A stretch of DNA of 64,000 nucleotides from an endosymbiont of Escarpia spicata (GTDB taxonomy: Bacteria; Pseudomonadota; Gammaproteobacteria; Chromatiales; Chromatiaceae), in the NCBI GenBank assembly GCA_003349915.1, contig QFXE01000005.1, forward strand, positions 582,363 to 646,362, read 5' to 3'. The notes under the pieces were generated by a model, which was given only the letters and a program-made list of their open reading frames with translations, did no database searches and was not told where the DNA came from. Shown here in pieces: positions 26,083 to 41,650 of the stretch. Made by a program: the position numbers and the translations under genes. Within the stretch, counting starts at the first letter, position 1. Every line of letters begins with the position of its first letter.

Positions 26083-26095
26083 GTCCCAGGACTTT

Positions 26096-27040
26096 TCAGT
26101 TTTCCGGCCACAATCCACGGATAGCCGCAATACCTTGGGCGCCACGCCGCCTTGCCTCAGCCATCGCTTCCAACCGCATCCCCCCCAGCGCATAGACTGG
26201 AAGATTGGCTTGATCAACCCACGCCTCAAACCGTTCCCACCCCAATGGCTCCACATCAGGATGGCTGGCCGTCGGCAGCACAGGAGACAGTAGCGCGTAG
26301 TCCAGCCCCAAGTCGACAGCGCGGGCAAGTTCCTCCGGATCATGACAGGAAGCCCCCACCAGGTCTGCGTTGGCAGGACGTCGTTGCAGTGACATCAATG
26401 TATGTCGATTGAGATGCAGACCATCCGCCAGCCCGGCCCAGTCCAGGACGCTGTCCGGACGATTCAGAATGAGGCGGGCACTCACATTTCCAGTAGTTTT
26501 CCTGGCTGCATCAACCAGCGCCCGGTAATCCTGATCTGATAGTTCATGGGCGCGCAACTGGACGATACGCACGCCCTGTTGCAAAACATGCTCAAGGCGC
26601 TGCAGAAACTGTTCCGGCCGTGATGAGTCTGTGCCGGTGATGAGATAACGGGAAGGCAGCTGAAGCGCCGTAATGACAGGTCGATCCGCCGCAGGAAAAA
26701 CCTCCGGACGCATCTCCTGGGGTCTGCACCAACGAAGCGGCTGGCCCTCGACGCCCCGGGGCGTTCCCGCAAAGGCACTCACACGGTGGACATCAAGGAG
26801 CACGGAACGAGTTTCATAGTGATGGGTGATGCGAATCAGTGGTTCAGACCGCAACGGCCGGACGTCGAGCTCCTCCAGCAGTTCCCGTTCCAGTGCCTGC
26901 AGCGGCGACTCGCCCGCTTCCAGTTTGCCGCCGGGAAACTCCCAGAGTCCACCCTGATGCACATGTTCCGGACGCCGGGCGATCAATATCCGTCCCTGGT
27001 CATCTTCGATAGCTGCGGCGGCGACGTGGATCAGCATCAA
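26096..27040 (-). CDS. mutT: Nudix hydrolase fused to thiamine-phosphate-synthase-like domain (MutT type)
   Basis: A 314-residue two-domain protein. Residues 1-130 carry the Nudix box as GGKLEAGESPLQALERELLEEL in the GX5EX7REUXEE pattern, after ARRPEHVHQGGLWEFP, typical of MutT (8-oxo-dGTP pyrophosphatase). Residues ~135-314 are a TIM-barrel thiamine-phosphate-synthase-like domain (VQLRAHELSDQDYRALV, VGASCHDPEEL, YALGGM). This fusion is known in gammaproteobacteria next to argJ and secA. The role of the second domain is unclear; the first probably cleans the nucleotide pool. Confidence 0.9.
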   Translation of the reverse strand: MMLIHVAAAAIEDDQGRILIARRPEHVHQGGLWEFPGGKLEAGESPLQALERELLEELDVRPLRSEPLIRITHHYETRSVLLDVHRVSAFAGTPRGVEGQPLRWCRPQEMRPEVFPAADRPVITALQLPSRYLITGTDSSRPEQFLQRLEHVLQQGVRIVQLRAHELSDQDYRALVDAARKTTGNVSARLILNRPDSVLDWAGLADGLHLNRHTLMSLQRRPANADLVGASCHDPEELARAVDLGLDYALLSPVLPTASHPDVEPLGWERFEAWVDQANLPVYALGGMRLEAMAEARRRGAQGIAAIRGLWPEN

Positions 27041-27044
27041 TCCA

Positions 27045-28247
27045 TCAGGTTCGGTATTCAGCGTTGATCTTGACGTAGTCGTAGGAGAGATCGCAAGTCA
27101 GAATCCGAGCTGCGGCTTGACCACGGCCCAGTTTCACGCCGATGGTGAATTCGGCACGATCCATCACCTGCTGTCCCGCCGCTTCGGTATAGTCTGCGGC
27201 ACGTCCTCCGTTCCGAACGATACATACGTCATCGAGCCAGATCTCCACCTGATCAATGGCCAAATCTTCCAGACCAGCCCGCCCCACTGCGGCGAGAATA
27301 CGCCCCCAGTTGGGGTCGGAGGCAAAAAGCGCAGTCTTGACCAGAGGGGAGTGAGCGATGGTATAGGCAACCGATCTCGCCTCATGCTCACTGGTTGCGG
27401 ATTCCACCAGCACTTCGACCAGCTTGGTTGCGCCCTCGCCGTCCCGCACTATCTCCCGCGCAAGAGACATGCAGACATCGGTGACCGTCTGACTCAGTTT
27501 CCGGTATGCCTCAGAGTCGGCATCAGACACTAATTCAACCCCGGCCTTGCCACTGGCCAGCAGCATGCAGGCATCATTGGTGGAGGTATCCCCGTCCACG
27601 GTAATGCTATTGAAGGAGGGCTGGACAGCATCACGCAGGCACTGCTGCAACAGCGAAACATCCACTGCGAGATCCGTTGCCAAATAGGCCAACATGGTGG
27701 CCATATCGGGCCGAATCATGCCGGAGCCCTTGGCAATACCGGTCACGGTGATGCTCTCCCCCGCCAGGTCAAACTGCCGGGATACCACTTTGGGACGGGT
27801 ATCGGTGGTCATAATCGCCACCGCAGCCGCCTCCCACGATGCCTCATCCAACGACTCAATCGCTTTCGGTAGCGCCTGTTCGATGCAATCGACCGGCAGA
27901 TTCTCACCAATCACACCGGTGGAGAATGGCAGAACCTGGGCAGCCTTACAGCCGGTAACCTCAGCCAATGCCGCACAGGAACGTTGCGCATCCAACAAAC
28001 CCTGGTCGCCGGTGCCGGCATTGGCATTTCCTGAATTGATCAGCAGATAACGAGGGGCTTCTGCCCCCATATGCTGTTTGGCCACATGCACCGGGGCTGC
28101 GCAAAATGCGTTACGGGTAAAGAGGCCGGCGCAACTCCCCCCCTCAGGTAAAGCTATGACAAGCAGGTCATTCCTGCCGGGATACTTGATGCCCGCTGCC
28201 GCCACCCCCAGGCGAATGCCGGGGACAGAGTAGACGTCATCCCCCAT
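27045..28247 (-). CDS. argJ: ArgJ, glutamate N-acetyltransferase / amino-acid N-acetyltransferase
   Basis: A 400-residue enzyme of arginine synthesis that recycles acetyl groups from N-acetylornithine to glutamate. It self-cleaves into two chains at the conserved Thr in GMIRPDMATMLAYLATD, which is present. The N-terminus VPGIRLGVAAAGIKYPGR, GNANAGTGDQG and TVDGDTSTNDACMLLA are also typical. The ATG at 28247 is chosen over the open frame from 28271; it follows the secA stop codon with two bases between, so the two genes are translationally linked. It overlaps no other gene. Confidence 0.95.
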   Translation of the reverse strand: MGDDVYSVPGIRLGVAAAGIKYPGRNDLLVIALPEGGSCAGLFTRNAFCAAPVHVAKQHMGAEAPRYLLINSGNANAGTGDQGLLDAQRSCAALAEVTGCKAAQVLPFSTGVIGENLPVDCIEQALPKAIESLDEASWEAAAVAIMTTDTRPKVVSRQFDLAGESITVTGIAKGSGMIRPDMATMLAYLATDLAVDVSLLQQCLRDAVQPSFNSITVDGDTSTNDACMLLASGKAGVELVSDADSEAYRKLSQTVTDVCMSLAREIVRDGEGATKLVEVLVESATSEHEARSVAYTIAHSPLVKTALFASDPNWGRILAAVGRAGLEDLAIDQVEIWLDDVCIVRNGGRAADYTEAAGQQVMDRAEFTIGVKLGRGQAAARILTCDLSYDYVKINAEYRT

Positions 28248-28249
28248 GA

Positions 28250-31066
28250 TCAGGCGATGCGCCCATGACACTGCTTGTATTTCTTACCGGAACCACATGG
28301 ACAGGGTTCATTGCGCCCGATCTTGCGTCCCTCACGCACAAACGGCTGATGCTCTTCCTCTGCAGCAGCTGCCTGTTGCGGTGCCGCCTGCTCCTCTTCG
28401 GTCAGGCCATGAAACTCTTCATGCTTGAACTCAAAATCGCTGCCCTGCTGAGAGTGGTCCTGCAACGCCATCTCTTCCGGCATCTGTACCTGAACCTTGG
28501 AGAGGACGCCCACGACTTCGGTTTTGATGCCGTCCAGCATGTTGGAAAACATCTCGAAGGCTTCGCGTTTGTACTCCTGCTTGGGATTTTTCTGCGCATA
28601 ACCACGCAGGTGAATACCCTGGCGCAGATAGTCCATTGCCGCCAGATGCTCTTTCCAGATACCGTCGAGAGTCTGCAGCATCACGCCCTTCTCGAACTGA
28701 CGCATCCCCTCGACACCAACGAAACCCTCTTTCTTCTGATACTCAGCTGTGAGCGTCTCCTCAATACGTGCGAGGAGAGTCTCTTCGTGCAGATCATGGT
28801 CATCGTCCAGCCACTGCTGGATCGGCCACTCTCCACTAAACTCATCAGCCAATGCCTGACTCAGCCCCGGCACATCCCACTGCTCTTCAAGACTCTCTCG
28901 GGGGATATGCTGGTGCATGACATCATCCACCACGTCGGCGCGCAGACTGGTAATGGTCTCGGAGATATCCTCCGTCTCCATCAGTTCGTTACGCTGCTGA
29001 TAGACCACCTTGCGCTGGTCACTGGCCACATCATCGTATTCGAGCAGCTGTTTGCGGATATCGAAGTTGCGTCCCTCAACCTTGCGCTGCGCATTTTCGA
29101 TCGCCTTGGTTACCCAGGGATGCTCGATTGCCTCGCCCTTCTCCATGCCCAGCCGTTTCATGATGCCACCCACCTTATCGGAGGCGAAAATACGCATCAG
29201 GCTGTCGTCCAGCGAAAGATAGAAGCGGCTGGAGCCAGGATCACCCTGGCGGCCGGAACGGCCCCGCAACTGGTTATCGATACGACGGGACTCATGACGC
29301 TCTGTACCCACCACGTGCAGACCCCCAGACTCAAGGATCTGTTTGTGTACCAACCCCCACGCCTCAGACATCTCATCGACTTTTGCCTTGTCCGGGTCTT
29401 CCCCCAACACGGCCAACTGAGTCTCAAGATTGCCGCCCAACACGATATCTGTACCTCGGCCCGCCATGTTGGTGGCGATGGTCACTGCTCCCGGCACGCC
29501 GGCCTGAGCCACAATCTCGGCCTCCTGCTCGTGGTGCTTGGCGTTCAGTACCTTATGATTGACACTGGCCTGCTGAAGTAGATTGGAGACCAGTTCCGAG
29601 GTCTCGATAGAGGCGGTACCCACCAGCACCGGCTGGCCCCGCTTCACGCAATCCTGCACATCTTCGAGGATCGCCTGATATTTCTCGTCCGGTGTAAGAA
29701 AAATCAGGTCACCCTTGTCATCGCGAATCATGGGCATGTTGGTGGGGATGACCACTACTTCCAATCCATAGATCTGCTGAAACTCGAAGGCCTCGGTATC
29801 GGCAGTACCCGTCATACCCGACAGTTTCTCGTAGAGACGGAAATAGTTCTGGAAGGTGATTGAGGCAAGCGTCTGATTCTCATGCTGAATCTCCACGCCT
29901 TCTTTGGCCTCGACTGCCTGGTGCAGCCCATCAGACCAGCGGCGGCCATGCATGGTACGACCGGTAAATTCGTCAACAATAACGATCTGCCCATCCTTGA
30001 CGATATACTCCACATCCTTCTGGAACAAGGCATGGGCGCGCAGCGCTGCATTCACATGGTGCATCAACATGATATTGGCTGAATCGTAGAGGCTTGCGCC
30101 CTCTGCCAGCAGCCCGGCCTCAGTCAGCATATCTTCCACATGCTGATGCCCCTCTTCGCTGAGATAGGTCTGGCGCGCCTTCTCATCCACCGAAAAGTCG
30201 CCTGGACCAAAATCCGGCTGCCCCTCGTCGTTGGTGATAGGATCCTGCCGTGTCAGCTGCGGAATGATCTTATCGACCGCCTGGTAAAGATCGGAACTGT
30301 CGTCAGTGGGACCGGAGATAATCAGCGGTGTTCGCGCCTCATCAATGAGGATGGAATCCACCTCGTCCACGATGGCATAGAAAGGCGGACGCTGTACCCT
30401 TTGCTCTCCGCTGAACGCCATATTGTCGCGCAGATAGTCGAAGCCGAATTCATTGTTGGTGCCGTAGGTCACATCGGCGGCATAAGCCGCTTTACGCTCA
30501 ACGGGACGCAAGTGCAGGAAACCACCCGTGGAACCAGAGTGTTCGGGATCATATAGGTAGGACGCGCTATCAGGCCCCCCTCCTCCGGAGGAGTTGATGA
30601 CACCCGTACTCAGCCCCAGAAAGTGGTAGATTCTGGCCATCCAGGCTGCATCACGACGGGCCAGATAGTCGTTCACCGTCACCACATGTACGCCCTTGGC
30701 GGGCAAGGCATTGAGATAGACTGCCAGGGTGGCGACCAAGGTCTTGCCTTCACCGGTCCGCATCTCGGCGATCTTGCCCTGGTTGAGCACCATGCCGCCG
30801 ATCAGCTGCACATCGAAGTGGCGCATCTGCATCACCCGGCGCCCCGCCTCACGCACAACGGCAAAGGCCTCACTCAGGAGTGTGTCGAGAGACTCTTCCT
30901 TCTCCAGGCGTTCGCGAAACTCCTGAGTTTTGGCACTCAGCGCTTCGTCCGAAAGCGCCTCCATATCCGCTTCCAGCGCACTAATCTTGGTGACATTCTT
31001 GCTCATCCGCTTGACCATGCGATCATTACGGCTGCCGAAAACCTTCTTGAATATGTTGGTGACCAT
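28250..31066 (-). CDS. secA: Protein translocase subunit SecA
   Basis: A 938-residue ATPase motor of the Sec pathway at the inner membrane. Seen are the Walker A region [12 protein letters not shown], Walker [54 protein letters not shown] and the C-terminal zinc-binding tail [17 protein letters not shown]. The start at 31066 ([16 protein letters not shown]) is the normal SecA N-terminus; the upstream 13 codons of the open frame are not. Neighbours argJ, mutT and an M23 peptidase match the standard gammaproteobacterial order. Confidence 0.97.
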
Positions 31067-31227
31067 GTAGTTATTGGCGTCCGTGAAAAATGCGAAATCG
31101 GGCAATCATACCCCATGCCATCGGTTTCATGAAGCAAGAGGGGAGGAGATGGGGGTGGGGCACGGCTTTAGTGCCGAATCAGACCCCACAACACCGGATA
31201 TGTGGGTCAATCTGCGGAATTCAAGCT

Positions 31228-31253
31228 ACCTGGTGCGCACAGCGCACCCTACC
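31228..31253. repeat. Short REP-like palindrome
   Basis: GGTGCGCACAGCGCACC is an inverted repeat with flanking ACC/TACC and resembles the arms of the two larger units at 11871 and 11960. It lies between secA and the M23 peptidase gene. Confidence 0.5.
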
Positions 31254-31281
31254 TTATGATTACGGTTGGAGAGCGCAGGAA

Positions 31282-32220
31282 TCAGGCCCGGGCTTCTGTG
31301 CGTTTGGTGCGGATATACTTGGTGGGATTGACGGTTTTACCATTTCGCAGCACCTCAAAATGAACGTGAGGGCCTGTGGAACGGCCGGTTGAGCCCATGC
31401 TGCCGATGGTCTGGCCCTGTTGAACCCGGTCACCGATTTTGACGTTGATCTTCGAGTTGTGGCCATAGCGGGTGACATAACCTTTGCCGTGGTTGATCTC
31501 AATCAGATAACCATAACCGCTCTGCTCGCCCGCCTTGGTCACCACGCCTGCCGCTACCGCAACGACATCCGAGTCTTTCTTTCCGGCGAAGTCCATCCCC
31601 TTGTGCATGGTGCGCTTGCCGGTAAACGGGTCGTTGCGCATGCCATAGTATGAAGAGATCCACCCCTTGGCCACGGGACGACCGGCCGGGTGTACGGATT
31701 TCTCCAACTCCGAGTTCATAATCAGATCTTCCAGCAACATCAACTGCTGCTCCCTGTTCGCGATAAGCACTTCCAGACTGTCCATGTCCTTCAGGATCTC
31801 CGGCAGCACCGACTGGGATTTCGCCACTTCAGCCACTACCGGGCCACCCACCGCTGACGGCGCCTCGAAACTGAACTCACCCTTATCCAGGCTGCCGATA
31901 TCCACCAGACGCTGCCCAAGGGCATCCAGCCTCAGCAAATTGGCCTGCAACTGCCCCAGCCGCATAGCCAAGCCGTCGATGCGCTCTTGGGCATCGGTCC
32001 TGGTATCTTCCAGTGCACGACGCTCCTGAGTGAAGGTATCTCTCAGCGAACGCACCAGCTGGTGCTCAGGAAAAGTCACGTCCTGCACACCCATTCTGTA
32101 ACCGGTCCAAAGCATGCCTGCGCCAAAGACGCAAAGCAGTCCAAGCAGGGTGATTGCCGATAGACAACGTCCTGTGGTGCTACAGCTTTTTCCGATGCCA
32201 CGCAGGTAGATGATCTTCAT
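31282..32220 (-). CDS. M23 family metallopeptidase, membrane-anchored murein hydrolase-like
   Basis: A 312-residue protein with an N-terminal membrane helix (~residues 20-45), a charged helical middle part (LVRSLRDTFTQERRALEDT and on) and a C-terminal LytM/M23 domain: HKGMDFAGKKDS (zinc His and Asp), YGHNSKINVKIGDRV and GRSTGPHVHFEV with the HxH pair. It probably trims peptidoglycan cross-links in the periplasm or regulates another hydrolase. It stands in the usual place beside secA. Confidence 0.9.
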   Translation of the reverse strand: MKIIYLRGIGKSCSTTGRCLSAITLLGLLCVFGAGMLWTGYRMGVQDVTFPEHQLVRSLRDTFTQERRALEDTRTDAQERIDGLAMRLGQLQANLLRLDALGQRLVDIGSLDKGEFSFEAPSAVGGPVVAEVAKSQSVLPEILKDMDSLEVLIANREQQLMLLEDLIMNSELEKSVHPAGRPVAKGWISSYYGMRNDPFTGKRTMHKGMDFAGKKDSDVVAVAAGVVTKAGEQSGYGYLIEINHGKGYVTRYGHNSKINVKIGDRVQQGQTIGSMGSTGRSTGPHVHFEVLRNGKTVNPTKYIRTKRTEARA

Positions 32221-32347
32221 TTATCCAGTTCTATCCGGGATTTTCAGGGGGAACTACGACGTTTATCGACCACTTAAGCCGAAACCTTTAGGCCTTTCTC
32301 TGCCAATTGCGATGGCATACAGCCACGCATTCTCCTATGATTTGCCC

Positions 32348-32794
32348 ATGCAAATCAAGATGAAGTCACTGGGAGAGCTGTTTGACTCCCGGGAATCGAT
32401 CAAAACCCTGAACAAAAAACTGGCACAGCATGCGGCGCTATTGGACAGAATTCGCCAGCTGCTGCCCAAACCCCTGGGCGAGCATTGCATCGGAGCTGTA
32501 CCGCATGAAACCCGGCTGGTGCTGTTTGTTGACTCACCCGCCTGGGCCAGCCGCTTCCGTTACCTGGGGCGGGATCTGCAGGAGAAACTCAAGGCCGAGG
32601 GGGTGTCGCTGGAGAGTATCAGGATCAAGGTATTCCTGCCCCAATCGGCACCAACCGGACAACATCACCCAGCGGAACCACTGACCCTTTCCAAAGAGAG
32701 CGCCGAAATGATTCGCAGTACCGCCGAGTGCACCGAATCTGCCGAATTGCGGGAGGCGCTGCTGCGTCTTAGCAGACATGGGGGGAGTTTATAG
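32348..32794 (+). CDS. DUF721 protein (DciA-like)
   Basis: About 148 residues. MKSLGELFDSRE and the middle part CIGAVPHETRLVLFVDSPAWASRFRYLGRDLQ match the DUF721 group, whose characterised members (DciA) help load the DnaB helicase. Whether this one is a true DciA is not shown. Frames extend upstream to 32210, but that would overlap the divergent M23 gene; ATG at 32348 (MQIKMKSLGELF) is chosen and ATG at 32360 is also possible. Its position by secA/lpxC fits family context. Confidence 0.75.
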   Translation: MQIKMKSLGELFDSRESIKTLNKKLAQHAALLDRIRQLLPKPLGEHCIGAVPHETRLVLFVDSPAWASRFRYLGRDLQEKLKAEGVSLESIRIKVFLPQSAPTGQHHPAEPLTLSKESAEMIRSTAECTESAELREALLRLSRHGGSL

Positions 32795-32851
32795 CGGTTG
32801 CCTCCGCTGGAAGGCCTTGTTAAAGGCATATTCTTACTCTACGCTAGCCAT

Positions 32852-32872
32852 ATGCGCATAATTAATGCGCAT
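32852..32872. promoter_or_regulatory. Palindromic candidate operator for ccdAB
   Basis: ATGCGCAT-AATTA-ATGCGCAT: each half is itself a perfect 8-bp palindrome, so the site is both a direct and an inverted repeat. It lies 28-48 bases upstream of the ccdA start and overlaps CATAAT, a -10-like word. Binding by the CcdA/CcdB complex, which is the known mode of autoregulation for the family, is inferred. Confidence 0.5.
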
Positions 32873-32899
32873 GATGCCTGCATAATGAGATACGTAGCT

Positions 32900-33145
32900 A
32901 TGATACATGCTTATAATTATTTGGCGCCAAAAAAGCCTGCGAACCTTAGCGTTAACAGTGACTTGCTTGCCAAAGCCAAGCGCCTGAAACTCAACCTTTC
33001 CGCCACCCTGGAAAATGCCCTTGCTGATGAGGTGCGAAAGGCAGAACGAACTCAGTGGCTACAAAAAAACCAAAATGCCATTGAAGCTTCAAACCGCCTT
33101 GCAGAGGAAAAAGGGTTCTTTGCAGACTCGTACAAGACTATCTGA
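32900..33145 (+). CDS. ccdA: CcdA-family antitoxin
   Basis: About 81 residues. After NLSVNSDLLAKAKRLKLNLSA (RHH DNA-binding half) comes ENALADEVRKAERTQWLQKNQNA, and the tail RLAEEKGFFADSYKTI is the CcdA-type toxin-wrapping end. ATG at 32900 is chosen; ATG at 32885 is equally possible. No clear Shine-Dalgarno is visible. Its stop TGA overlaps the ccdB ATG (TGATG), typical of TA operons. The pair lies at the edge of the accessory island. Confidence 0.82.
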   Translation: MIHAYNYLAPKKPANLSVNSDLLAKAKRLKLNLSATLENALADEVRKAERTQWLQKNQNAIEASNRLAEEKGFFADSYKTI

Positions 33146-33462
33146 TGAGCCAATTTACGCTGTACGAGAACAAGAACGCCGATTCCAATGAGACCTATCC
33201 TTATTTCATCGATGTTCAAAATGACCTTCTCGATTCTCTAAATACTCGCCTCGTTATACCTCTTACACCTTCGAAATACCTGGGTGATGTAAATATTGGC
33301 AATCTGTGCCCGATAACTTCCATCAATGGCACGCAATTTGTGCTCCTGACCCACCAAATGACCAACGTTCCTGTTGCTGCACTTCAGGCACCAGTCGATT
33401 CCCTGGAACATCTCAGAGAAGAAATAGTGGCGGCGATCGATTTTCTGGTTACTGGCATTTAA
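33145..33462 (+). CDS. ccdB: CcdB-family gyrase-targeting toxin
   Basis: A 105-residue toxin of the CcdB family, which in known members traps DNA gyrase. Visible family features are FTLYENKNADSNETYPYFIDVQNDLLDSLNTRLVIPL, ITSINGTQFVLLTHQMTNVP, and a C-terminal EEIVAAIDFLVTGI in place of the usual DALDFLFxGI ending. The length and the overlap with ccdA are normal. Target and activity are inferred from family. Confidence 0.85.
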   Translation: MSQFTLYENKNADSNETYPYFIDVQNDLLDSLNTRLVIPLTPSKYLGDVNIGNLCPITSINGTQFVLLTHQMTNVPVAALQAPVDSLEHLREEIVAAIDFLVTGI

Positions 33463-33764
33463 CTGACTATGAACCAGCCACCTGTCTTCCTGAATTCCGC
33501 TGTGCTTCATCCAGGCCGTATTTATTCCATGCTTTCGGATGACACCCGGTTTGGTTTTTATTCGGCAACTGCCCAGTTCAACGTGTAGGCCCGATCAAGC
33601 GCGGCGGATCGGGCGTTTTCGCATTGGCAAGCTGCCGGTTCCACTGCGCTTGAACCGGCCTACATCAATTTGGGGGTTTTTCCTGGTATTCCTGCCCGCC
33701 CCGCCTGACCGATGCTTCGTCCCTCAGCGTCTGTCCGGCGTGGCTCCCCTTGCCGCACTCCGCG
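33463..33764. repeat. Intergenic region with imperfect inverted repeat and the DGR 3' flank
   Basis: It contains an imperfect inverted repeat of GTAGGCCCGATCAAGCGC (33585-33602) with GCGCTTGAACCGGCCTAC (33646-33663), followed by the ~78-bp conserved DGR flank (33704-33781, described below). I see no gene between ccdB and the first DGR target. Confidence 0.45.
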
Positions 33765-33781
33765 CTACCCGCTCTTTTGAC
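33704..33781 (-). repeat. DGR variable-repeat downstream flank, copy A
   Basis: About 78 bp directly downstream (coding sense) of VR1 are shared with 36408-36485 downstream of VR2, with only a few substitutions and one indel. Both hold a potential hairpin (in copy B GCGCGGC...GCCGCGC; in copy A a weaker GTGCGGC...GCCACGC with mismatch). Hairpins just after the variable repeat are known to help retrohoming in characterised DGRs; that role here is inferred. Confidence 0.65.
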
Positions 33782-34598
33782 CTCGGGCAAGACGCAAGCC
33801 AATGAAGTGGTAGCGGCTGCCGGGAACGAGGAAGTCGCGGTAGGCAGAACGCAGGGACCTGCCGCCGTTGATCCAGGAGCCGCCACGCAAAACACGGGAC
33901 TCGCCTCCTGGCGGCCCCACAGGATCTACCACCTCACCCTCTGGGTAGTCACCGTACCAGTCTGCGCACCACTCCCAAACATTGCCGTGCATCTGGTGCA
34001 GACCCCAAGTGTTTACCCCTTCCGCCAAGGCTTTGACCTCTATTGTCTCCTCCCTGTACTGGCCTTTCGGCCCGTCTCCATAGGGATAGCGGCCATTATA
34101 GTTGGCCTGATCCGTAGGTATCTGCTCCCCGGCGGCAAAGGGCGTCTCTGTACCGGCGCGACAGGCGTACTCCCATTCAGACTCTGTCGGCAGGCGGAGG
34201 TTCGGGTCCGGCTGTTGTTGGCTCAGCCTGTCGAGAAACCCCGCCACATCCTGCCAGCTCACCCGCTCCACTGGCCGATCCTCTCCTTTGAAATGGCTCG
34301 GATTGCCTCCCATCACCGCCTCCCACAGGCGTTGGGTACAGGCAGTATCCGCCAACCAGTAGCCTTGAGTAATCGTCACCTGATGTTGGGTTTCATCGTC
34401 ACTACGCTCTGCTTCCGTCTCCGGTGAACCCATCAGAAAGGTGCCGGGATAGACCCAGCGCAGGCGCTGGGTCACGCCGGATATCTCGAACTCGGCATAG
34501 TGGCCATAATCATCCTCACCCCATCCACTTGCCCATGCCGGGGGAAACGGCTGGGGAAACTGGCTCATGGGTGACGGGTTTTCAGACAGACTGGTCAT
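33765..34598 (-). CDS. DGR target protein 1 (FGE-sulfatase/C-type-lectin-like fold)
   Basis: A 277-residue protein with a formylglycine-generating-enzyme-like domain: YPGTFLMGSPETEAERSDDE, QVTITQGYWLADTACTQRLW, RVSWQDVAGFLDRL, RLPTESEWEYACRAG and the terminal VLRGGSW...GFRLAR-type end. Residues ~232-272 are the variable repeat VR1. Residues from ~35 onward closely match the C-terminal ~240 residues of target 2, so this looks like a shortened duplicate lacking the vWA-like part. Start ATG 34598; ATG at 34568 also possible. No strong Shine-Dalgarno for either. No signal peptide, so a cytosolic sensor is likely. Confidence 0.85.
   Translation of the reverse strand: MTSLSENPSPMSQFPQPFPPAWASGWGEDDYGHYAEFEISGVTQRLRWVYPGTFLMGSPETEAERSDDETQHQVTITQGYWLADTACTQRLWEAVMGGNPSHFKGEDRPVERVSWQDVAGFLDRLSQQQPDPNLRLPTESEWEYACRAGTETPFAAGEQIPTDQANYNGRYPYGDGPKGQYREETIEVKALAEGVNTWGLHQMHGNVWEWCADWYGDYPEGEVVDPVGPPGGESRVLRGGSWINGGRSLRSAYRDFLVPGSRYHFIGLRLARGQKSG
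33782..33905 (-). repeat. DGR variable repeat VR1
   Basis: Aligned without gaps to the TR at 34762-34885 (offset 980). It differs at 15 positions where the TR has A on the coding strand, for example AAC to CTC, AAC to TTC and GAT to GTT. The only other difference is one C-to-G near the 3' end (33795), in the likely initiation-of-homology part. All codons remain open. It forms the last ~41 residues of target 1. Confidence 0.93.
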
Positions 34599-34761
34599 GA
34601 CTGTGATGGCTTTGTGGATAGGCGATCATCCGATGGGCTTTCGAACTGCATCCGCTAACCCTACTCGCGCACCGGTGACCCTTTGGTTTTTGCCGCATGG
34701 CCAAAAGCCGGGCGGACAGGATGGCACTCTGGTCAAAATACGCCATCCGGCGCAGATCGAG

Positions 34762-34885
34762 CTCGGGCAAGACGGAAGCCAATGTTGTGGTTGCGGTTGC
34801 CGGGATCGTTGATGTTGCGGTAGGCAGAACGCAGGTTCCTGCCGTTGTTGATCCAGGAGCCGCCACGCAAAACACGGTTCTCGCC
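34762..34885 (-). repeat. DGR template repeat (TR)
   Basis: A 124-bp repeat 26 bases downstream of the reverse transcriptase stop. Read in the VR frame it gives RVLRGGSWINNGRNLRSAYR followed by NINDPGNRNHNIGFRLAR, so it is full of AAC (Asn) codons at the sites that vary in VR1 and VR2. This Asn-AAC pattern is the hallmark of DGR templates, because mutating A in AAC gives 15 amino acids without a stop codon. It lies between the RT gene and target 1 and is probably transcribed with the RT. Confidence 0.95.
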
Positions 34886-34911
34886 TTTACGAATCCCACC
34901 CACCCTTGTGT

Positions 34912-35919
34912 TTATACATCAACAGGTGCATCACGTAAAAGCACGCTTCGTCGCCAGGCATGACTTTCAGCCCCTTGAAGAATGGCATGAACAGATGCAT
35001 AGCGGTTTTGCAGCTCAAGGGCGCTGATCTCTCCCGCTTCCCAAGCGTCCTCCCAATATTGCCGTCTCTCACGATAGCGTCGCTTGCGTCGTGGACTCAG
35101 GCCGATGCCAGACGGCTTTATGCGATAGCCGCAATAGGTAACACCAAAATCACTTCGGTTAATCTGTATGTTGCCTTTGACAGTTAATCGACACTCCTTC
35201 TCGATATGTGTTCTCACGGACTCCAGCGTCTGTGCTGCATTCTGGCGGCTGTCGCACCACCAGATAATATCGTCCATATAGCGCAGCGACGCTCGCACTT
35301 GTGAGTGACCAAGCAACAGCCGGTCCAACCTGTCGAGATAGTAGTTGGCGAAATACTGCGAGGTGAGCGAGCCGATGGGCAAGCCCCGTTTACTACCTAC
35401 ATCGTGGCTTTCGATAATTCGTCGTAACAGATTCAGAAATTCATCACCTTTGAAACGACGCTGCAACAGTGAAAAGAGTCTGGCATGGCAGATCGAATTA
35501 AAATAGCTGTCGATGTCTATCTTTACATACCAGGGGTAACGGCGCATTGCCGCCAACACCGCCCCGGCCACCTTATGCACACCTCGCCCAGGCAGACAGG
35601 CATAGGTGGTCGGCGCCATGGCCTTTTCAAACAGAGGACCGGCAAGATTCATGATGGCGTGGTGGACCACACGATCCTCAAAGCAGGCTGCATGAATCAG
35701 TCGCCGTTTCGGATCATGGATGACAAACTGTTTGTATCGGCCATAGGGCGCCCTGCCGTCAAGGATGTCTGCACCAAGTTGTTCCAGGTTTGCATCCAGA
35801 TCACTGAAGAACGCGGCAACTTTCGGCCGCCCATGCTTACCCCGCCCGGCTTTCCAAGCGGCCAAAACCAGATTATTCAGCTCCCCGATCACCTCAATAT
35901 CGATGCGGGTTCTTCTCAT
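34912..35919 (-). CDS. DGR reverse transcriptase
   Basis: A 335-residue retroelement reverse transcriptase. It has YVKIDIDSYF (residues ~131-140, first catalytic Asp), GLPIGSLTSQYFANYYLD (~179-196, with the GxxxSQ word typical of DGR enzymes instead of the retroviral QGxxxSP), and the catalytic RYMDDIIWW (YMDD at ~214-217). Start ATG 35919 overlaps the HRDC gene stop as ATGA, so the two are translationally coupled; the open frame extends to 35952. It copies TR RNA with errors at adenines; the TR lies 26 bases after the stop. Confidence 0.95.
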   Translation of the reverse strand: MRRTRIDIEVIGELNNLVLAAWKAGRGKHGRPKVAAFFSDLDANLEQLGADILDGRAPYGRYKQFVIHDPKRRLIHAACFEDRVVHHAIMNLAGPLFEKAMAPTTYACLPGRGVHKVAGAVLAAMRRYPWYVKIDIDSYFNSICHARLFSLLQRRFKGDEFLNLLRRIIESHDVGSKRGLPIGSLTSQYFANYYLDRLDRLLLGHSQVRASLRYMDDIIWWCDSRQNAAQTLESVRTHIEKECRLTVKGNIQINRSDFGVTYCGYRIKPSGIGLSPRRKRRYRERRQYWEDAWEAGEISALELQNRYASVHAILQGAESHAWRRSVLLRDAPVDV

Positions 35920-36377
35920 TGTGACGGCTTCTGTTTTTCCACTGCCCCACACAGTGTTTCGATGAAGAACGCACCAAATTTGTCGATTTTTGCCTTTCCG
36001 ATACCCTCGATATTTCTCAAGGCAGCCAGGCTATCTACACGGTTTCGTACCATTTCCGCTAACTGTTCGTTGTTAAATACCGCATAGGCATGTATCCCCT
36101 CAGCTTCAGCCAACTGCTTTCTTTGGTTGCGTAATATGGCGTAGAGGGCAAAATCCTGCTCATTGAGCACCTCCCGATAGTCAACACTTGGCTTATTGCC
36201 GCGCTTTGCCTCTCCCTGCTGCACATAAGTGACGCAGATCGACCAGAAGCTGCTCTCACCCGCCGCCACGAACTGCTTCTCTACGGCAACAATCCGCATG
36301 CTACCGCAAAATCGGTTGAGTGCCTCCTGTCCCGGTTCCGGGAAGCGTGCATCTATCGTGAAAAATTGATATTTCAT
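35916..36377 (-). CDS. HRDC-domain DGR accessory protein
   Basis: A 153-residue protein. The N-terminal half (MKYQFFTIDARFPEPGQEALN and on) is not recognised; residues ~68-145 form an HRDC domain: VLNEQDFALYAILRNQRKQL, NNEQLAEMV and LRNIEGIGKAKIDKFG. HRDC proteins are one of the known alternatives to Avd as the DGR accessory factor and probably bind the TR RNA or RT complex. It overlaps the RT start by four bases and lies 91 bases downstream of target 2. Confidence 0.88.
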   Translation of the reverse strand: MKYQFFTIDARFPEPGQEALNRFCGSMRIVAVEKQFVAAGESSFWSICVTYVQQGEAKRGNKPSVDYREVLNEQDFALYAILRNQRKQLAEAEGIHAYAVFNNEQLAEMVRNRVDSLAALRNIEGIGKAKIDKFGAFFIETLCGAVEKQKPSQ

Positions 36378-36407
36378 TTCAATTCCTGAAGGCTACCTCC
36401 GCCACAC

Positions 36408-36485
36408 CTGACCGATGCTTCGTCCCTCAGCATCTGTCCGGCGCGGCTCCCCCTTGCCGCGCTCCGCGCTACCGGCCATTTTGAC
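36408..36485 (-). repeat. DGR variable-repeat downstream flank, copy B
   Basis: The counterpart of 33704-33781, directly after VR2. On the coding strand it carries GCGCGGC and GCCGCGC as a 7-bp stem around an 8-base loop, a better hairpin than in copy A. The target 2 stop codon is inside this flank. Confidence 0.65.
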
Positions 36486-38814
36486 CTCGGGCAAGACGGA
36501 AGCCAATGTTGAGGTAGCGGGAGCCGGGATCGTCGATGCCGCGGCAGGCAGAACGCAGGTTCCTGCCGCCGCTGACCCAGGAGCCGCCACGCAAAACACG
36601 GAACCCGCGGAGCACGCCTTTAGGCGGCCCCACCGGATCTTCGTCCTCACCCTCTGGGTAGTCACCGTACCAGTCTGCACACCACTCAATAACATTCCCG
36701 TGCATCTGGTGCAGGCCCCAAGTATTTATCCCTTCCGCCAGGGCTTTGACTTCTATTGTCTCCTCCCTGTATGGGCCTTTCGGACCATCATTGTAAGGGT
36801 AGTTACCATCGTAATTGGCCTGTTCCGTAGATATCTGCTCCCCGGAGGCAAAGGGCGTCTCTGTACCGGCACGACAGGCATACTCCCATTCAGCCTCTGT
36901 CGGCAGCCGGAGGCCCGGATCCGGCTGTTGCTGGTTCAGCCTATCGAGAAATCCCGCCACATCCTGCCAACTCACGCTCTCCACAGGCCGATCCTCTCCC
37001 TTGAAACGACTCGGGTTGTTTCCCATCACCACCTCCCATAATCCCTGGGTGCAGGCTGTATCCGCCAGCCAGTAGCCTTGAGTAATCGTCACTTGGTGTT
37101 GGAATTCGTCGTCATCACGCTCAAGCTCCGCTTCCGGTGAACCCATCATGAAGCTGCCGGGGTTGACCCAGCGCATGCGTTGGGTCACGCCGGATATCTC
37201 AAACTCAGCATAGAGACCGAAGTGATCGCATCCCATGACCGAGGCCCATTCAGGGCGTAGCCTGGATGTCAGGAATAGCTGTTCAGTATCGCTGCGCAGC
37301 AGAATGTTCCCTGGATAGGGCGGCAGGGTCAGTGCTTGCGGCAGATTGGCGGGATCAATACTGCCCGTGACGGGGGTGGCCAATCCAGGGGCCTCGATCT
37401 GCCATTGGAGATAGTCTCCAGCGGTGAAGCTGGCAATGGGGCTGCCTCTTGAGTATGCCGCCGGTATATTCACGTCAGACAACACCCCGATCACCAGTTG
37501 ATCCGCCTGTTGCCGCAATTGCACCTGACGGGGCGCATGACCCTGCATCAGCCAATGGGCGGATAACAGGTCCACACCTGCAGGTGGGTCCAGGGTTTCC
37601 CCCCGCTGTTCCGCAACCCGCCTGACTGCCACCCAGGCAGCGGTCAGCAGCGGGTCACCGCGCTCCCACATGGCGTTGTGATGGCGTTCCACCGAACGGC
37701 CCACCCAATTGCCCATGGCTGTATCGTGAGGATTATTCAGCAGCGTCCTGATCTCCCGCTCCATGTGGTGTTCGTAAACCGGGCTGACCTTGACCCCCAG
37801 CTCGGCGCAGTAGCGCATCTCGGTAGCGAGAACGACCGGGGGCAGTCCGGCGTGATGGGCCGCCAGCAGTTGCGACAACATCGCTTTGCAGGCTGGATCC
37901 AGTTCCCGGTATTTTTCACGATGCTCCTCCACTGCATGATCCTTAAAGGCAAAACCGGCGAGGGCCGAATCGACGCCTTCGTGTTGCCATATCTCAGCCT
38001 CGTTTCCCACATCGGCCTGATCCGTAGATAACAGATAACGGGCAGCCCGTAACAGCGCAGGTTCTACCCGGATGGCCGGGGCCAGCAGATCAAGCAAGTT
38101 TGCCACACCATCGATATCCGGGCCGAGACGCCTCCCCATGATCCGGCTGTTCCCGGGCAGTTTGCCCGGCAGGGGTACGCCGCGATCCCAAACCACCTGG
38201 GTAAAGAGCCGGGAGAGATGCTTGTCCCAGAGACGGGAAGGGGTGGGCGTCAGCACCCACGGGGTGATTCCCCTGGCCCTGAGCCCTCGGCCAAAACGCC
38301 GCCAACCGTTTTTGCTCAACGCCAGTTGGTCGTACTGGCCAAGATCGCTGAGAATCAGCAGCGGCGTCCCTGACGGAGGCAGATGACAACCTTGCGGCGG
38401 CTCATCCAGCTCATCCACCTGAAGTCCCTGCCTGCCACGCAGCCGTACCAGGGCGCGTTTCAGATCTCCAAAATCATCCCAGAATGGAGCCAGCCGGTGG
38501 CTGACATCAATGATCAGACGGCATTCACCGGACCAGGTATGTCGCTGAAGGTAGGGGATCCGGTGCAGTGTCCGGCCTCGCACCAGTTCCCCAACCAGCG
38601 CCGGCAGGTCGGGTTCGTTGGTGGCTTGCCTGTCACCAAGAACCAAACGCAGGAAAGGCCAAAGACGCCGCCAGGGTGCAAGCGGCGATTTTTCCGGGGG
38701 GACATAAGCAAAATCCGGAGCAGACTCCTCCGGGGAAAGGGGCACAGCGTTGGTGAACCAGGCTGGCACCTCGCGGTTTGAGTTGTCTCTGTCCCGTTGC
38801 CGGTGACGCTGCAT
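36469..38814 (-). CDS. DGR target protein 2: vWA-like region plus FGE domain (N-terminal extension to 39088 likely)
   Basis: 781 residues from the ATG at 38814. Residues ~90-270 look like a degenerate vWA/CoxE-type domain (CRLIIDVSHRLAPFWDDFG with a DxSxR in place of MIDAS DxSxS, then TPLLILSDLGQY and GITPWVLTPTPSRLWD). A linker of about 270 residues follows, and the FGE-like domain fills ~540-781, with VR2 at ~736-776. Coding-like sequence without stops continues upstream of 38814 in the same frame to the MoxR stop at 39103 (for example GRAELIDALADYGDAG, LEHFARFLGYEKVPG), so the true protein is probably longer; a 7-bp tandem repeat at 39044-39064 separates it from a plausible ATG at 39088. 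Confidence 0.85.
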   Translation of the reverse strand: MQRHRQRDRDNSNREVPAWFTNAVPLSPEESAPDFAYVPPEKSPLAPWRRLWPFLRLVLGDRQATNEPDLPALVGELVRGRTLHRIPYLQRHTWSGECRLIIDVSHRLAPFWDDFGDLKRALVRLRGRQGLQVDELDEPPQGCHLPPSGTPLLILSDLGQYDQLALSKNGWRRFGRGLRARGITPWVLTPTPSRLWDKHLSRLFTQVVWDRGVPLPGKLPGNSRIMGRRLGPDIDGVANLLDLLAPAIRVEPALLRAARYLLSTDQADVGNEAEIWQHEGVDSALAGFAFKDHAVEEHREKYRELDPACKAMLSQLLAAHHAGLPPVVLATEMRYCAELGVKVSPVYEHHMEREIRTLLNNPHDTAMGNWVGRSVERHHNAMWERGDPLLTAAWVAVRRVAEQRGETLDPPAGVDLLSAHWLMQGHAPRQVQLRQQADQLVIGVLSDVNIPAAYSRGSPIASFTAGDYLQWQIEAPGLATPVTGSIDPANLPQALTLPPYPGNILLRSDTEQLFLTSRLRPEWASVMGCDHFGLYAEFEISGVTQRMRWVNPGSFMMGSPEAELERDDDEFQHQVTITQGYWLADTACTQGLWEVVMGNNPSRFKGEDRPVESVSWQDVAGFLDRLNQQQPDPGLRLPTEAEWEYACRAGTETPFASGEQISTEQANYDGNYPYNDGPKGPYREETIEVKALAEGINTWGLHQMHGNVIEWCADWYGDYPEGEDEDPVGPPKGVLRGFRVLRGGSWVSGGRNLRSACRGIDDPGSRYLNIGFRLARGQNGR
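36486..36608 (-). repeat. DGR variable repeat VR2
   Basis: Aligned without gaps to the TR (offset 1724). It differs at 15 positions, all where the TR has A on the coding strand, for example AAC to GGC, AAC to TCC, CAC to CTC and TAC to TGC; the match ends at the 5' boundary. The 3' end keeps the TR sequence TTCCGT, unlike VR1. It encodes the C-terminal part of target 2. Confidence 0.93.
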
Positions 38815-39043
38815 GTACCAGAAGCAGGCCTTGGGTGTTTGTCTGGATGTGCCTTTCCCTGTAACGGCTTGGGCGGCACCTTCACCTGTGGCCTCGATAA
38901 TGGTGACTGGCTTCTCTTCACCATCGTCTTTGGCCGCTCCAGGAACCTTTTCATAGCCCAGGAACCGGGCAAAATGCTCCAGTCCTGCATCGCCGTAATC
39001 TGCCAGGGCATCGATCAGCTCTGCCCGGCCAGGCTGGGTGCGC

Positions 39044-39064
39044 CGGAAGGCGGAAGGCGGAAGG
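39044..39064 (-). repeat. 7-bp tandem repeat (CGGAAGG)x3 in the 5' end of target 2
   Basis: Three perfect copies on the plus strand (CCTTCCG on the coding strand). An ATG at 39088 lies 14 bases after the MoxR stop, with GGGG nine bases upstream. With three repeats it reads out of frame and stops; deleting exactly one 7-mer puts that ATG in frame with the open reading frame leading to 38814 and beyond, beginning MGKASYSAPSAFRRTQPG. A slippage switch or an assembly error of one unit are both possible. Confidence 0.6.
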
Positions 39065-39102
39065 TGCGCTATAGGATGCCTTGCCCATTCAGGATCACCC
39101 CG

Positions 39103-40074
39103 TCAATCAGCATCCGATTCCAGGTAGGGGGATTTTTTCAGCGCATAGTCCTTGATCTTGTGCAGCACCTCCATTTGGTCACGCTCACTATCGGCCATGC
39201 CGCTCACTGCCCTCAACATGTCGAGGTATTCAGCCTGTCCCGGCGGGGTGATGCCGAAATCCTGCGCTGCAAGACGATCTTCCTGAAGCAGCTCCGCTGC
39301 CTCTTTCAGCACATTCTCTTTGCAGTCATCCCCGAAATGGAGCCGCCCCCTTTCAATCAGGTATTCGACCAAACCGGACTCATCTTTCGGTAGTTCGAGT
39401 CTCAGCACCATGCAGCGACGCAAGAAAGCCGCGGGGAGTTCCCGCTCTTCATTGGTGGTGACTACCACCAGCGGCGGGTTCTCCTGTTGCTGCTTGATGG
39501 TCTTGTGAATGTAGGGCACGGTGAATGCGCCGTTGCCAAGGCTCTCCAGCAGGCCGTTTGGAAGGTCAGCGTCCGCCTTGTCAATCTCGTCGATCAACAG
39601 CACACTGCCCTCACCCGGCTGCCACTTCGAAGGTCTTTCCGGTATGGTGCCACCCTGTTTGCAATGGCTGTTTTGATAGAGGGCGCTCTTCCAATTATAG
39701 ACCCACCAGAGCGGCCCAGGACGCAGGAATTTTGACTCTTTGAGCTGGGTGTCTGCATCCTCCCGGCCGATACCCGCTGCCAGCGCCTGCGCCACACCCA
39801 GTCGACCTACCGCATCGAAGTGCCAGTGCAGATCATGGGCCTCGTAGCGTGAGTGGACCACTTCAGGAACAAACAGCCGTCCCAGTTCATGGGCCACCGC
39901 ACGCGCCAACTGGCTCTTGCCGGCCCCCGGTTCCCCACGGATCAATAGTGGCCTACGGGATGCCAGGGCCGCTTCAACTGCATAGACCTCTTCACCGAAG
40001 ACGTGTCGGGTCCCGGGCCAGGAACCGAACTGATCGAGGGTGATGCGCTTACCAGGGGTGATGAGGGTTTTCAT
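39103..40074 (-). CDS. MoxR-type AAA+ ATPase
   Basis: A 323-residue ATPase: Walker A LLIRGEPGAGKSQLARAVA (GEPGAGKS at 47-54), Walker B VLLIDEIDKADADLPNGLLE, sensor-type VVTTNEERELPAAFLRRCM. This is the MoxR/RavA style, often paired with a vWA (CoxE-like) protein; the adjacent target 2 has such a region. The ATG overlaps the TIR gene stop (ATGA), and its stop is 14 bases before the probable target 2 start. The three genes are likely one operon. Confidence 0.9.
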   Translation of the reverse strand: MKTLITPGKRITLDQFGSWPGTRHVFGEEVYAVEAALASRRPLLIRGEPGAGKSQLARAVAHELGRLFVPEVVHSRYEAHDLHWHFDAVGRLGVAQALAAGIGREDADTQLKESKFLRPGPLWWVYNWKSALYQNSHCKQGGTIPERPSKWQPGEGSVLLIDEIDKADADLPNGLLESLGNGAFTVPYIHKTIKQQQENPPLVVVTTNEERELPAAFLRRCMVLRLELPKDESGLVEYLIERGRLHFGDDCKENVLKEAAELLQEDRLAAQDFGITPPGQAEYLDMLRAVSGMADSERDQMEVLHKIKDYALKKSPYLESDAD

Positions 40075-41495
40075 AGATATTTCCTGAGAGATTTCAGAAA
40101 TGTTTCAACCAGATTTTCCACTTGATATTCGGGCAACAACAGGATCTTTCCCTGTCCACCCTCGATGCCGTAGTAAACGAACTTCAGCTCTTCGAGCTCA
40201 ACCTGCAGTTGTTCTACGACATCTTTTGTCAGACAGGTGGTGCCATCCTGCTGATGAATCGCAATATAGATACTGCGCCTGGTCGCCATGCGCCTTTCAA
40301 TACGTAGTTGCCCGTTGAGCTTGTCCCTGTCTCCCTTTTCGAACACCTTCGGCACTTCATCCGTGGGCCAGAACATCTGCCAGAGTGATTTCTTTACTTC
40401 ATATGCAGCACATTGCGAGGAATACCCCGACTCCAGGATCACTCCATTACCACTGATAGAGTGATCCTCCTTTTTTCTGAAATCCAGGGAGGGTGTCTTG
40501 ATATTGAGTCGGGCAACCAGTATCTCCACGCCGGTCCTGGTTCTGAGAGGAAGACTGATCTCAATCGATTTACCGCTGATGAACGCATCGATGTTGTCAC
40601 TGATCCATTGATCATTGACCTGGGTCAGCAATATCCAGCCCAGCAGACTGACCAGCAATTCAGCCACGCCCTTCAGTTCAGACGAGTTGACATCACGGAT
40701 TTCCGACATCTGCTCCAGATAGGCGAGCCCCACATTATTCAGCGAGAAGACAGCCTCTTCCGCGTGTTCTGCAGTGGCTGCACCGCAGAGATAATCCACT
40801 GCCGCATGCAGTCCCTCTCTTGGTGAAATTTCGTCCTCCAGCCTACGCCCCAGTTCAGGCTTCGCCAACAGCAACTTCTCGAAGTTATCTCTGACATCCC
40901 TTCGAAAGCGCAATACGGCCCGCTTATGCTGGAGCAGCTCAGCACGCTTCAGAAGGGTGGTGATAAGCGCGTCAAAATCGCTATTGATGTGGGTTGCTGG
41001 ATCTAAAGCATACCAATCGGAAAACTTAGAGATACATTCATCAATACACTTTGCCGAATCACTGATCTCTTTTGCATGCGCTTGCGCCCTGGCCGCGTTT
41101 TTCGGTATCTCGGAAGCTGCATCATGCGACTTTGAGTTCCAGTAGTTGATAAGCGCTTTTTGTATTTCAACATCTCTGAGATTGATATCCTGCAGTTGAA
41201 CCGGCAGAACTCGCAGTTCGAAATCGCCATACTCTTTGATCGATTTCAGTTCATTGACACAATCATCGCTGTGCCAATAGCGTTCACTGGAGACAACCAC
41301 GACAAAATCACCCTTGCGGAGTTCATCCATGAAGCGCTTGATTGACTCCCCATACGCGGTCTCACTCGTGTCCCGCCTGAGTACACCGACCCCACGTTTT
41401 TTAAAAGCCGCTTCCAATTTGGCCGCAATAGGAACTTTTTCCTCTGCCGCATGCGAGTAGGAGATGAAAACACTGGATACTTTTTTCCTGGCCAT
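40071..41495 (-). CDS. TIR-domain effector protein
   Basis: A 474-residue protein. The N-terminal ~140 residues are a TIR/SEFIR-like domain: SSVFISYSHAAEEKVP, AYGESIKRFMDELRKGDFVV, and VVSSERYWHSDDCVNELKSI, which has the Sx(W/Y)xxSxxCxxEL pattern where TIR NAD-hydrolases carry the catalytic Glu. The rest is helical and unknown; no transmembrane segment is apparent. It is the first gene of TIR-MoxR-target 2. The expected role is a toxic or signalling effector (NAD cleavage) released when the MoxR/vWA-FGE complex senses a trigger; that is inference. Confidence 0.85.
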   Translation of the reverse strand: MARKKVSSVFISYSHAAEEKVPIAAKLEAAFKKRGVGVLRRDTSETAYGESIKRFMDELRKGDFVVVVSSERYWHSDDCVNELKSIKEYGDFELRVLPVQLQDINLRDVEIQKALINYWNSKSHDAASEIPKNAARAQAHAKEISDSAKCIDECISKFSDWYALDPATHINSDFDALITTLLKRAELLQHKRAVLRFRRDVRDNFEKLLLAKPELGRRLEDEISPREGLHAAVDYLCGAATAEHAEEAVFSLNNVGLAYLEQMSEIRDVNSSELKGVAELLVSLLGWILLTQVNDQWISDNIDAFISGKSIEISLPLRTRTGVEILVARLNIKTPSLDFRKKEDHSISGNGVILESGYSSQCAAYEVKKSLWQMFWPTDEVPKVFEKGDRDKLNGQLRIERRMATRRSIYIAIHQQDGTTCLTKDVVEQLQVELEELKFVYYGIEGGQGKILLLPEYQVENLVETFLKSLRKYL

Positions 41496-41592
41496 GTTTT
41501 TCTTCCATTGTCTAGACCCTTCCAGAAGATTTTTATTCTATGCCAAAAGACTCCATATCTGAATCCCACTGCCATGGGAAAAAGTTCGCCGC

Positions 41593-41629
41593 AAAAAAAA
41601 GGCCGCATCCAGACGGACGCGGCCTTTTT
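41593..41629 (-). terminator. Rho-independent terminator of lpxC
   Basis: GGCCGC (41601-41606) and GCGGCC (41619-41624), flanked by AAAAAAAA on one side and TTTTT on the other, form a strong hairpin with a U tract in either direction. It ends the mraZ-to-lpxC transcript 22 bases after the lpxC stop and insulates the island's TIR gene that starts at 41495. Confidence 0.85.
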
Positions 41630-41650
41630 CGGCGTAAGCAGGAGATTGAA

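Follow-up and report, generated by a model that had tools for sequence, protein, structure and literature searches.

A diversity-generating retroelement of the HRDC type with adenine-restricted variation in two lectin-fold targets and a covarying element 3' of its template repeat, from an endosymbiont of Escarpia spicata

Few natural machines diversify proteins in a targeted way; diversity-generating retroelements (DGRs) are among them, and to our knowledge their mechanism is known mostly from one phage system with Avd. For the phage cassette BPP-1, the roles of the individual elements, including the spacer RNA with the reverse transcriptase (RT) and Avd, have been described (PMC12875486, PMC3240598), and HRDC proteins are known as DGR accessories (PMC10053308). 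The stretch analysed here, hereafter the window, comprises 64,000 nucleotides (nt) of contig QFXE01000005.1 (positions 582,363 to 646,362, forward strand) from an endosymbiont of Escarpia spicata, and its minus strand carries a DGR with an HRDC accessory gene, one template repeat (TR) and two variable repeats (VRs). We consider it quite likely that in two lectin-fold proteins, predicted sensors for a TIR-type conflict system, the variable ends have been overwritten with copies of the template RNA made by an RT that errs at adenines. A second proposal, towards which we lean with less confidence, is that in a clade of HRDC-type DGRs an uncatalogued RNA fused to the 3' side of the TR recruits RT and HRDC and determines where error-prone cDNA synthesis begins, which would be a second DGR RNA architecture, located after the RT gene, and that a one-base mark between TR and VR directs homing. 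The components of the DGR are as follows, in window positions.

36469..38814, minus strand: target 2, a long N-terminal extension with an FGE/C-type-lectin domain, VR2 at its 3' end
36486-36608, minus strand: VR2, 123 nt
35916..36377, minus strand: HRDC accessory protein, 153 amino acids (aa), PF00570 E 1e-16
34912..35919, minus strand: DGR reverse transcriptase, 335 aa from ATG, RVT_1 E 3.3e-16
34762-34886, minus strand: TR, ending in AGC where the VRs have AGG
34620..34755, minus strand: structured RNA element 3' of the TR, covariance model R1, 107.8 bits
33765..34598, minus strand: target 1, a short "lectin-only" FGE/C-type-lectin protein, 277 aa, PF03781 E 1.8e-41, VR1 at its 3' end
33782-33906, minus strand: VR1, 125 nt

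An earlier note, made from the letters of this DNA, had claimed a complete DGR in which two VRs match one TR, and all of its elements were recovered at the positions given there. The TR was likewise found behind the RT gene, at a spacing of 25 bases from the RT stop codon as delimited here instead of the 26 first counted. The RT shares 34.3% identity with BPP-1 brt across 80% of the query (E 9e-31), and the GxxxSQ and YMDD motifs that had been read in it are present in the open reading frame as GLPIGSLTSQ and RYMDD, motifs of the types that mark DGR RTs. The accessory gene had been recognized correctly as well, since the HRDC domain is found by the domain model listed above; its stop codon overlaps the RT start. 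Both VRs lie at the 3' ends of lectin-fold (FGE-like) target genes, as in other DGRs. In fold comparison, the lectin domain of target 2 is matched best by TvpA, which is known as the variable protein of a DGR.

Re-alignment of the repeats returned the reported 15 adenine-site differences in each VR and the single C-to-G change in VR1, with almost no changes at other bases. VR1 differs from the TR at 15 of 28 adenines and by the one C>G over 125 nt, and VR2 at 15 of 27 adenines and nowhere else over 123 nt. The first repeat scan was lenient on adenine mismatches and was therefore rerun with symmetric scoring, which yielded 15 A and one C change for VR2 and 15 A and two C changes for VR1; the additional C>G is the base at the repeat boundary and is common to both VRs. 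Under symmetric scoring, the restriction to adenine has hypergeometric P values of 2.4e-11 and 3.1e-10. The constant region of the two targets served as an internal control: over 277 nt it differs at 39 sites, of which 4 are adenines with target 1 as the reference (65 of its 277 bases being A) and 13 with target 2. Third codon positions account for 22 of these 39 differences, and 27 of the 28 VR substitutions counted fall at codon positions 1 or 2. When the five VRs of the endosymbiont's own genome were pooled, adenine accounted for 94 of 102 substitutions, compared with 149 of the 653 template positions compared.

Variation among relatives, which the earlier note had proposed as a check, is present with respect to another species, and it is located at template-A codons, meaning those whose first or second TR base is A. 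Against the nearest relative (protein P0040 for target 1 and P0001 for target 2; L, G, C and P numbers denote loci, genomes, contigs and proteins of the comparison), 9 of 17 such codons differ in target 1 and 14 of 17 in target 2 (23/34 together), as opposed to 1 of 24 and 3 of 23 other VR codons (4/47 together). The remainder outside the VR differs at 44 of 236 codons in target 1 and 43 of 192 in target 2, where only the FGE domain was counted. The VRs are therefore hypervariable where the template has adenine, and elsewhere they are more conserved than the sequence around them. At the level of sequence, these comparisons demonstrate a complete DGR that bears the mark of its action on both targets, and the variation relative to the other species is consistent with mutagenic homing at this locus.

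A cassette with such marks might be a relic that mutated its targets formerly and no longer works here, which we regard as unlikely. The 5' end of target 2 would fit a relic and weighs against the reading that we prefer: in this assembly, the frame is open over the N-terminal 80-95 residues but lacks ATG, GTG or TTG, and the ATG that matches relatives of target 2 (39088) is out of frame with it, with three tandem copies of a 7-bp unit at 39044-39064 in between. Target 2 may thus be shortened, phase-variable or decaying, and the frame break at 39044-39088 could reflect phase variation, decay or an assembly error; relatives have intact copies. Decay has also taken place nearby in phylogeny, as the same-genus genome G001 contains a DGR (L062:3128-9381) with an RT frame truncated to 203 aa, 9-11 non-A changes in each VR and a still recognisable RNA element, and the endosymbiont's own genome holds a TR/VR cassette without an RT. 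In the window, on the other hand, RT, HRDC, TR and RNA element are all intact, and inside the repeat the VRs carry non-A changes at 0 and 1 sites (1 and 2 if the boundary base is counted), compared with 9-11 in the decayed relative, which speaks against a relic.

When the genome was queried with the TR, clear matches beyond the window's TR and two VRs were obtained on contigs C8 and C2, together with one weak 40-base match on C9. The C8 matches belong to a second complete DGR (L007:2254-10031) in the order trypsin-like protein, AAA ATPase, long FGE target, HRDC, RT, TR and short FGE target; its VRs show 18 and 23 changes at A and 2 and 3 at other bases. The RT of this DGR shares 44% identity with that of the window and falls in a supported 10-row group (97/97) that excludes the window RT; the two DGRs are therefore probably separate acquisitions and not the product of a recent copy. 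The cassette on C2 (L008:5686-8162, near 110 kb) is a TR/VR pair of 129 nt with 23 A changes and no others, no RT was found near it, and the pair lies on a NACHT-FGE gene that a TAG interrupts, followed by an IS200-like transposase. Two adjacent, very similar 625-aa proteins (L008:9192-13120) and a TIR protein (L008:13279-14262) lie near this cassette. In all, the genome search gave three RVT_1 genes, the third of which was not recovered with a DGR RT as query; it encodes 524 aa (L065:4133-5707, contig C17), and its neighbour is presumably a transposase.

Approximately 130 bases on the 3' side of the TR look conserved across loci. The TR end was readable in 22 loci, of which L029, L031, L067 and L071 were omitted (another lineage, decayed, unlike the rest and cut off, respectively), and the remaining 18 entered an alignment based on sequence only. 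L031 and L062 denote one locus, used under the latter name as the held-out test, and L077 yielded no TR. In the window, the element is composed of P1 (34739-34754), then P2, the long stem P3 with arms within about 34681-34661 and 34637-34624, and the inner hairpin P4. P3 and P4 were found by RNAalifold, with double changes in 12 of 16 pairs (13 by another counting rule); with P2 added, 333 of 359 cells are paired (92.8%), and double compensatory changes occur in 16 of 20 pairs over the 18 loci. None of 500 shuffles reached any of five measures, and sliding the partner by 1-3 columns left 33-45% of cells paired; related sequences can beat such shuffles without structure, a pitfall addressed by the slid controls and the held-out locus. 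P1, located between the TR end and a GACCAGA box, is supported by a per-sequence test (combined P 2e-8, 8/18 sequences at 0.05), as was P2 (combined P 1e-4, 4/18 sequences better than shuffles at 0.05). Covariation of the element across loci is thus shown in the aligned sequences.

A covariance model, R1, with 131 positions and three stems was trained on the 18 loci, including the window. In the 64-kb window, itself a training locus, R1 gives a single match at E 1, the one behind the TR. The held-out decayed locus L062 was recognized immediately 3' of its TR with 47.2 bits (E 1.6e-8), and the best off-target matches in that search scored 19.1 and 18.5 bits. With filters off, nothing above 12 bits was obtained in BPP-1, a Prosthecochloris DGR, L029, L030, L032, L063 or L008, and the BPP-1 piece gave no match at E 5. 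In an RT tree of 25 rows, one branch (support 100/99) is R1-positive in 19 of 20 rows, 18 of which trained the model, and none of the five rows outside that branch is positive at E 0.2 or better.

Several observations weigh against an RNA of this structure confined to one RT branch. P2 is the weakest stem, with 81.9% of its cells paired; L067, inside the branch, has only a partial R1 match (21.3 bits); and L029, outside it, has its best match (11.4 bits, E 0.23) immediately 3' of the TR, perhaps a remote version, in which case the element would not be confined to the branch. Folded alone, the window element is unexceptional (z -1.19, 23 of 200 shuffled sequences being no less stable), and both P1 and P3 are missing from its lowest-energy fold.

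The element could instead be a DNA signal, such as a homing cruciform, or a terminator, and not an RT-binding RNA. BPP-1 does require a hairpin or cruciform, though behind the VR and not behind the TR (PMC3240598). In the window the arrangement is the reverse, with R1 matching behind the TR and giving no match behind either VR, and the model with its 131 positions and three stems also speaks against a signal of that kind. Moreover, the alignment contains 44 G-U cells and 3 A-C cells, an excess that is the mark of a strand-specific RNA and identifies the TR-sense strand as the one that folds. A DNA signal or terminator accordingly appears improbable, even a little more so than the relic, and by analogy with BPP-1 the element is probably an RNA platform for RT and HRDC. 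No conserved RNA for HRDC-type DGRs was described in the titles and abstract openings found, a search that left subscription papers mostly uncovered, and no literature on DGRs together with Sedimenticola was found. A conserved DGR RNA is already known as an idea, and the HRDC-clade element is the part that was not found in print.

Homing in BPP-1 takes its direction from the IMH and IMH* elements. For that phage, IMH and the hairpin that follows it have been treated (PMC3240598), and a comparable mark may exist here in the boundary base. The difference at the last base of VR2 had been noticed and set aside in the earlier note, but it is not noise: the TR ends in AGC and the VRs in AGG (12 loci) or AGT (6 loci), so that a C in the TR faces G or T in the VR at 18 of 18 loci with a readable repeat end. 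The boundary was read in the window, L007, L022-L028, L068-L070, L072-L076 and L062; L066 and L067 were unreadable, and the VR detected for L066 has 13 non-A changes. In the boundary scan, L028 gave no pair (72-75 nt in other scans) and neither did L063. The RT-less cassette L008 does not have this pattern. By analogy with BPP-1, we infer that the boundary base directs homing.

A possible mechanism can be proposed from these data. The first step is visible in the sequence itself, in one TR and two VRs with changes restricted to A at codon positions 1 and 2, also between species. Next, a transcript of the TR and the element would fold, and P3/P4, probably with P1/P2, could bind the complex of RT and HRDC. 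The bound element may then set the cDNA start at the TR 3' end, in the manner of the spacer RNA with RT-Avd in BPP-1. The cDNA could enter the VRs and not the TR owing to the fixed end base (AGC in the TR, AGG or AGT in the VRs). Following ligand binding, the long target may relay the signal to an AAA ATPase, which would unleash a TIR protein; at other loci, a trypsin-like or SIR2-like protein occupies the TIR slot. The two genes concerned lie upstream of target 2 in the window.

40071..41495, minus strand: TIR-domain protein, candidate effector, 474 aa, TIR_2 E 3.7e-11
39103..40074, minus strand: AAA ATPase (MoxR-like), 323 aa, AAA_5 E 2.4e-10

These two genes overlap each other, and the minus-strand order of transcription is TIR gene, AAA ATPase, target 2, HRDC, RT, TR, structured element and target 1. 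The ATPase and its counterpart in the second DGR (L007) share 42% identity over 300 columns; the bpMoxR matches of the two (E 0.025 in the window, 4.4e-4 in the second DGR) are below the cut-off, and AAA_5 is above its own. In the TIR protein, S76, C79, E82 and L83 are invariant in four aligned proteins, and we take E82 to be the catalytic glutamate. By analogy, the targets are inferred to sense an invader and to act through the ATPase and the TIR protein, the latter probably an NAD-consuming killer. It weighs against this that neither a vWA nor a VMAP domain was detected in domain searches of the locus proteins, so that the signalling chain is drawn by analogy; the effector gave no relevant Pfam match beyond TIR, the VMAP domain's own model not having been compared separately.

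A scan of genome contigs yielded seven loci (Methylococcales, Thiotrichaceae, Accumulibacter, Myxococcota and others). All seven have a TR and an HRDC match beside the RT, that of L028 being partial and overlapping the RT match, and the ATPase is within the locus in six, the exception (L025) being a short contig. The full gene order of the window is complete in L022, L023, L024, L027 and L028; L026 is rearranged and L025 too short. The slot before the ATPase is occupied by TIR in the window, L022 and L028, by SIR2_2 in L027, and by a trypsin-like protein in L007 (27.2 bits, cut-off 27.6) and L023 (21.4 bits, cut-off 20.6); the gene of L026 has no Pfam match, and that of L024 resembles the trypsin-like protein only weakly, by tblastn. 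Searches with the RT found matches at E 1e-60 in 5 of 369 genomes of the class, the endosymbiont's own included; at E 1e-50, 2 of 20, 6 of 40 and 1 of 3 genomes matched in three orders, and at E 1e-40 3 of 6 same-genus genomes, again with its own.

The recurrence of this order bears on another explanation, namely that the diversified proteins serve a role other than defence, for instance kin or surface recognition, with the TIR and ATPase genes as passengers. Target 2 gave no PADLOC model match in a search that left target 1 outside, as such a role would have it. Against it, the full order is kept in five of seven loci, and the TIR protein of the window has weak PADLOC matches (best E 6.2e-7). 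The first genes that can be named (L022, L023, L027 and L028) are moreover TIR, trypsin-like or SIR2-like, types known from conflict systems (PMC10907252). We hold the non-defence role to be doubtful, if less so than the two alternatives discussed above, and retain the reading of predicted sensors for a conflict system.

The DGR with its TIR and ATPase genes lies in a lineage-specific region between dciA and lpxC.

32779..41650, no strand: lineage-specific island with the whole DGR, TIR and ATPase genes, 8.9 kb, from flank comparison with G005
32798-33462, plus strand: ccdAB toxin-antitoxin pair, left end of the island, from the domain search

The 8.9-kb island is absent from one same-genus genome, G005, in which its flanks are only 112 bp apart and are 94% and 97% identical to the window (26000-32778 and 41651 onwards). 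Another, G001, has a different 4.1-kb insert at this site, and the site may possibly be an insertion hotspot. The G001 site carries a 1160-aa open reading frame (L058:2757-6239), and a stretch near lpxC of G002 (L059:122-5577) contains what we take to be a large repeat protein and a transposase-like frame. For G002-G004, the lpxC side alone aligned in the stretch compared, and the island site there is uninformative.

The RNA model of HRDC-type DGRs that emerges from the window, its sister L007 and 16 other loci makes the priming step directly testable. R1 could help to find TRs in genomes and, together with the TR/VR count, distinguishes live cassettes from decaying ones; a template RNA structure kept in related cassettes would, if true, offer a handle on how copying starts. 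The exchange of TIR, trypsin-like and SIR2-like proteins behind a single layout of diversified sensors is in line with the published proposal of adaptable triggers of cell death.

In BPP-1, the order is target, accessory gene Bbp7 (which we take to be Avd), TR, spacer and RT, whereas in the window the RT precedes the TR, HRDC stands in the accessory place, and the element lies between the TR and target 1. Common to both are a homologous RT, A-restricted TR/VR changes and a structured RNA 3' of the TR (PMC12875486, PMC8867640). The DGR of Treponema denticola also has an HRDC accessory overlapping the RT gene; unlike in the window, its accessory gene lies between TR and RT and its targets are predicted lipoproteins (PMC4891356). 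TvpA (2y3c) is the closest solved variable protein. The VMAP ternary systems similarly combine an AAA (MoxR-like) ATPase, a DGR-diversified FGE protein and a peptidase or TIR effector, and they possess vWA and VMAP domains, neither of which was detected in the window (PMC7159879). The closest likeness in layout is to clade 5A DGR loci such as DGR 8 of Thiohalocapsa PB-PSB1, in which a MoxR-like ATPase directly precedes a long target made of an uncharacterised N-terminal extension and a C-terminal lectin domain, a second, short lectin-only target is present, TIR or trypsin-like effectors are nearby, and genomes contain several divergent DGRs, some of them degenerate (PMC10907252). With its MoxR-like ATPase upstream of the long target and its short target, the window matches this published kind by gene layout, the RTs not having been placed in that tree. 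The main text of that paper mentions accessory proteins without the word HRDC, and to its description of clade 5A the present analysis adds the RNA element behind the TR and the fixed base at the TR/VR boundary.

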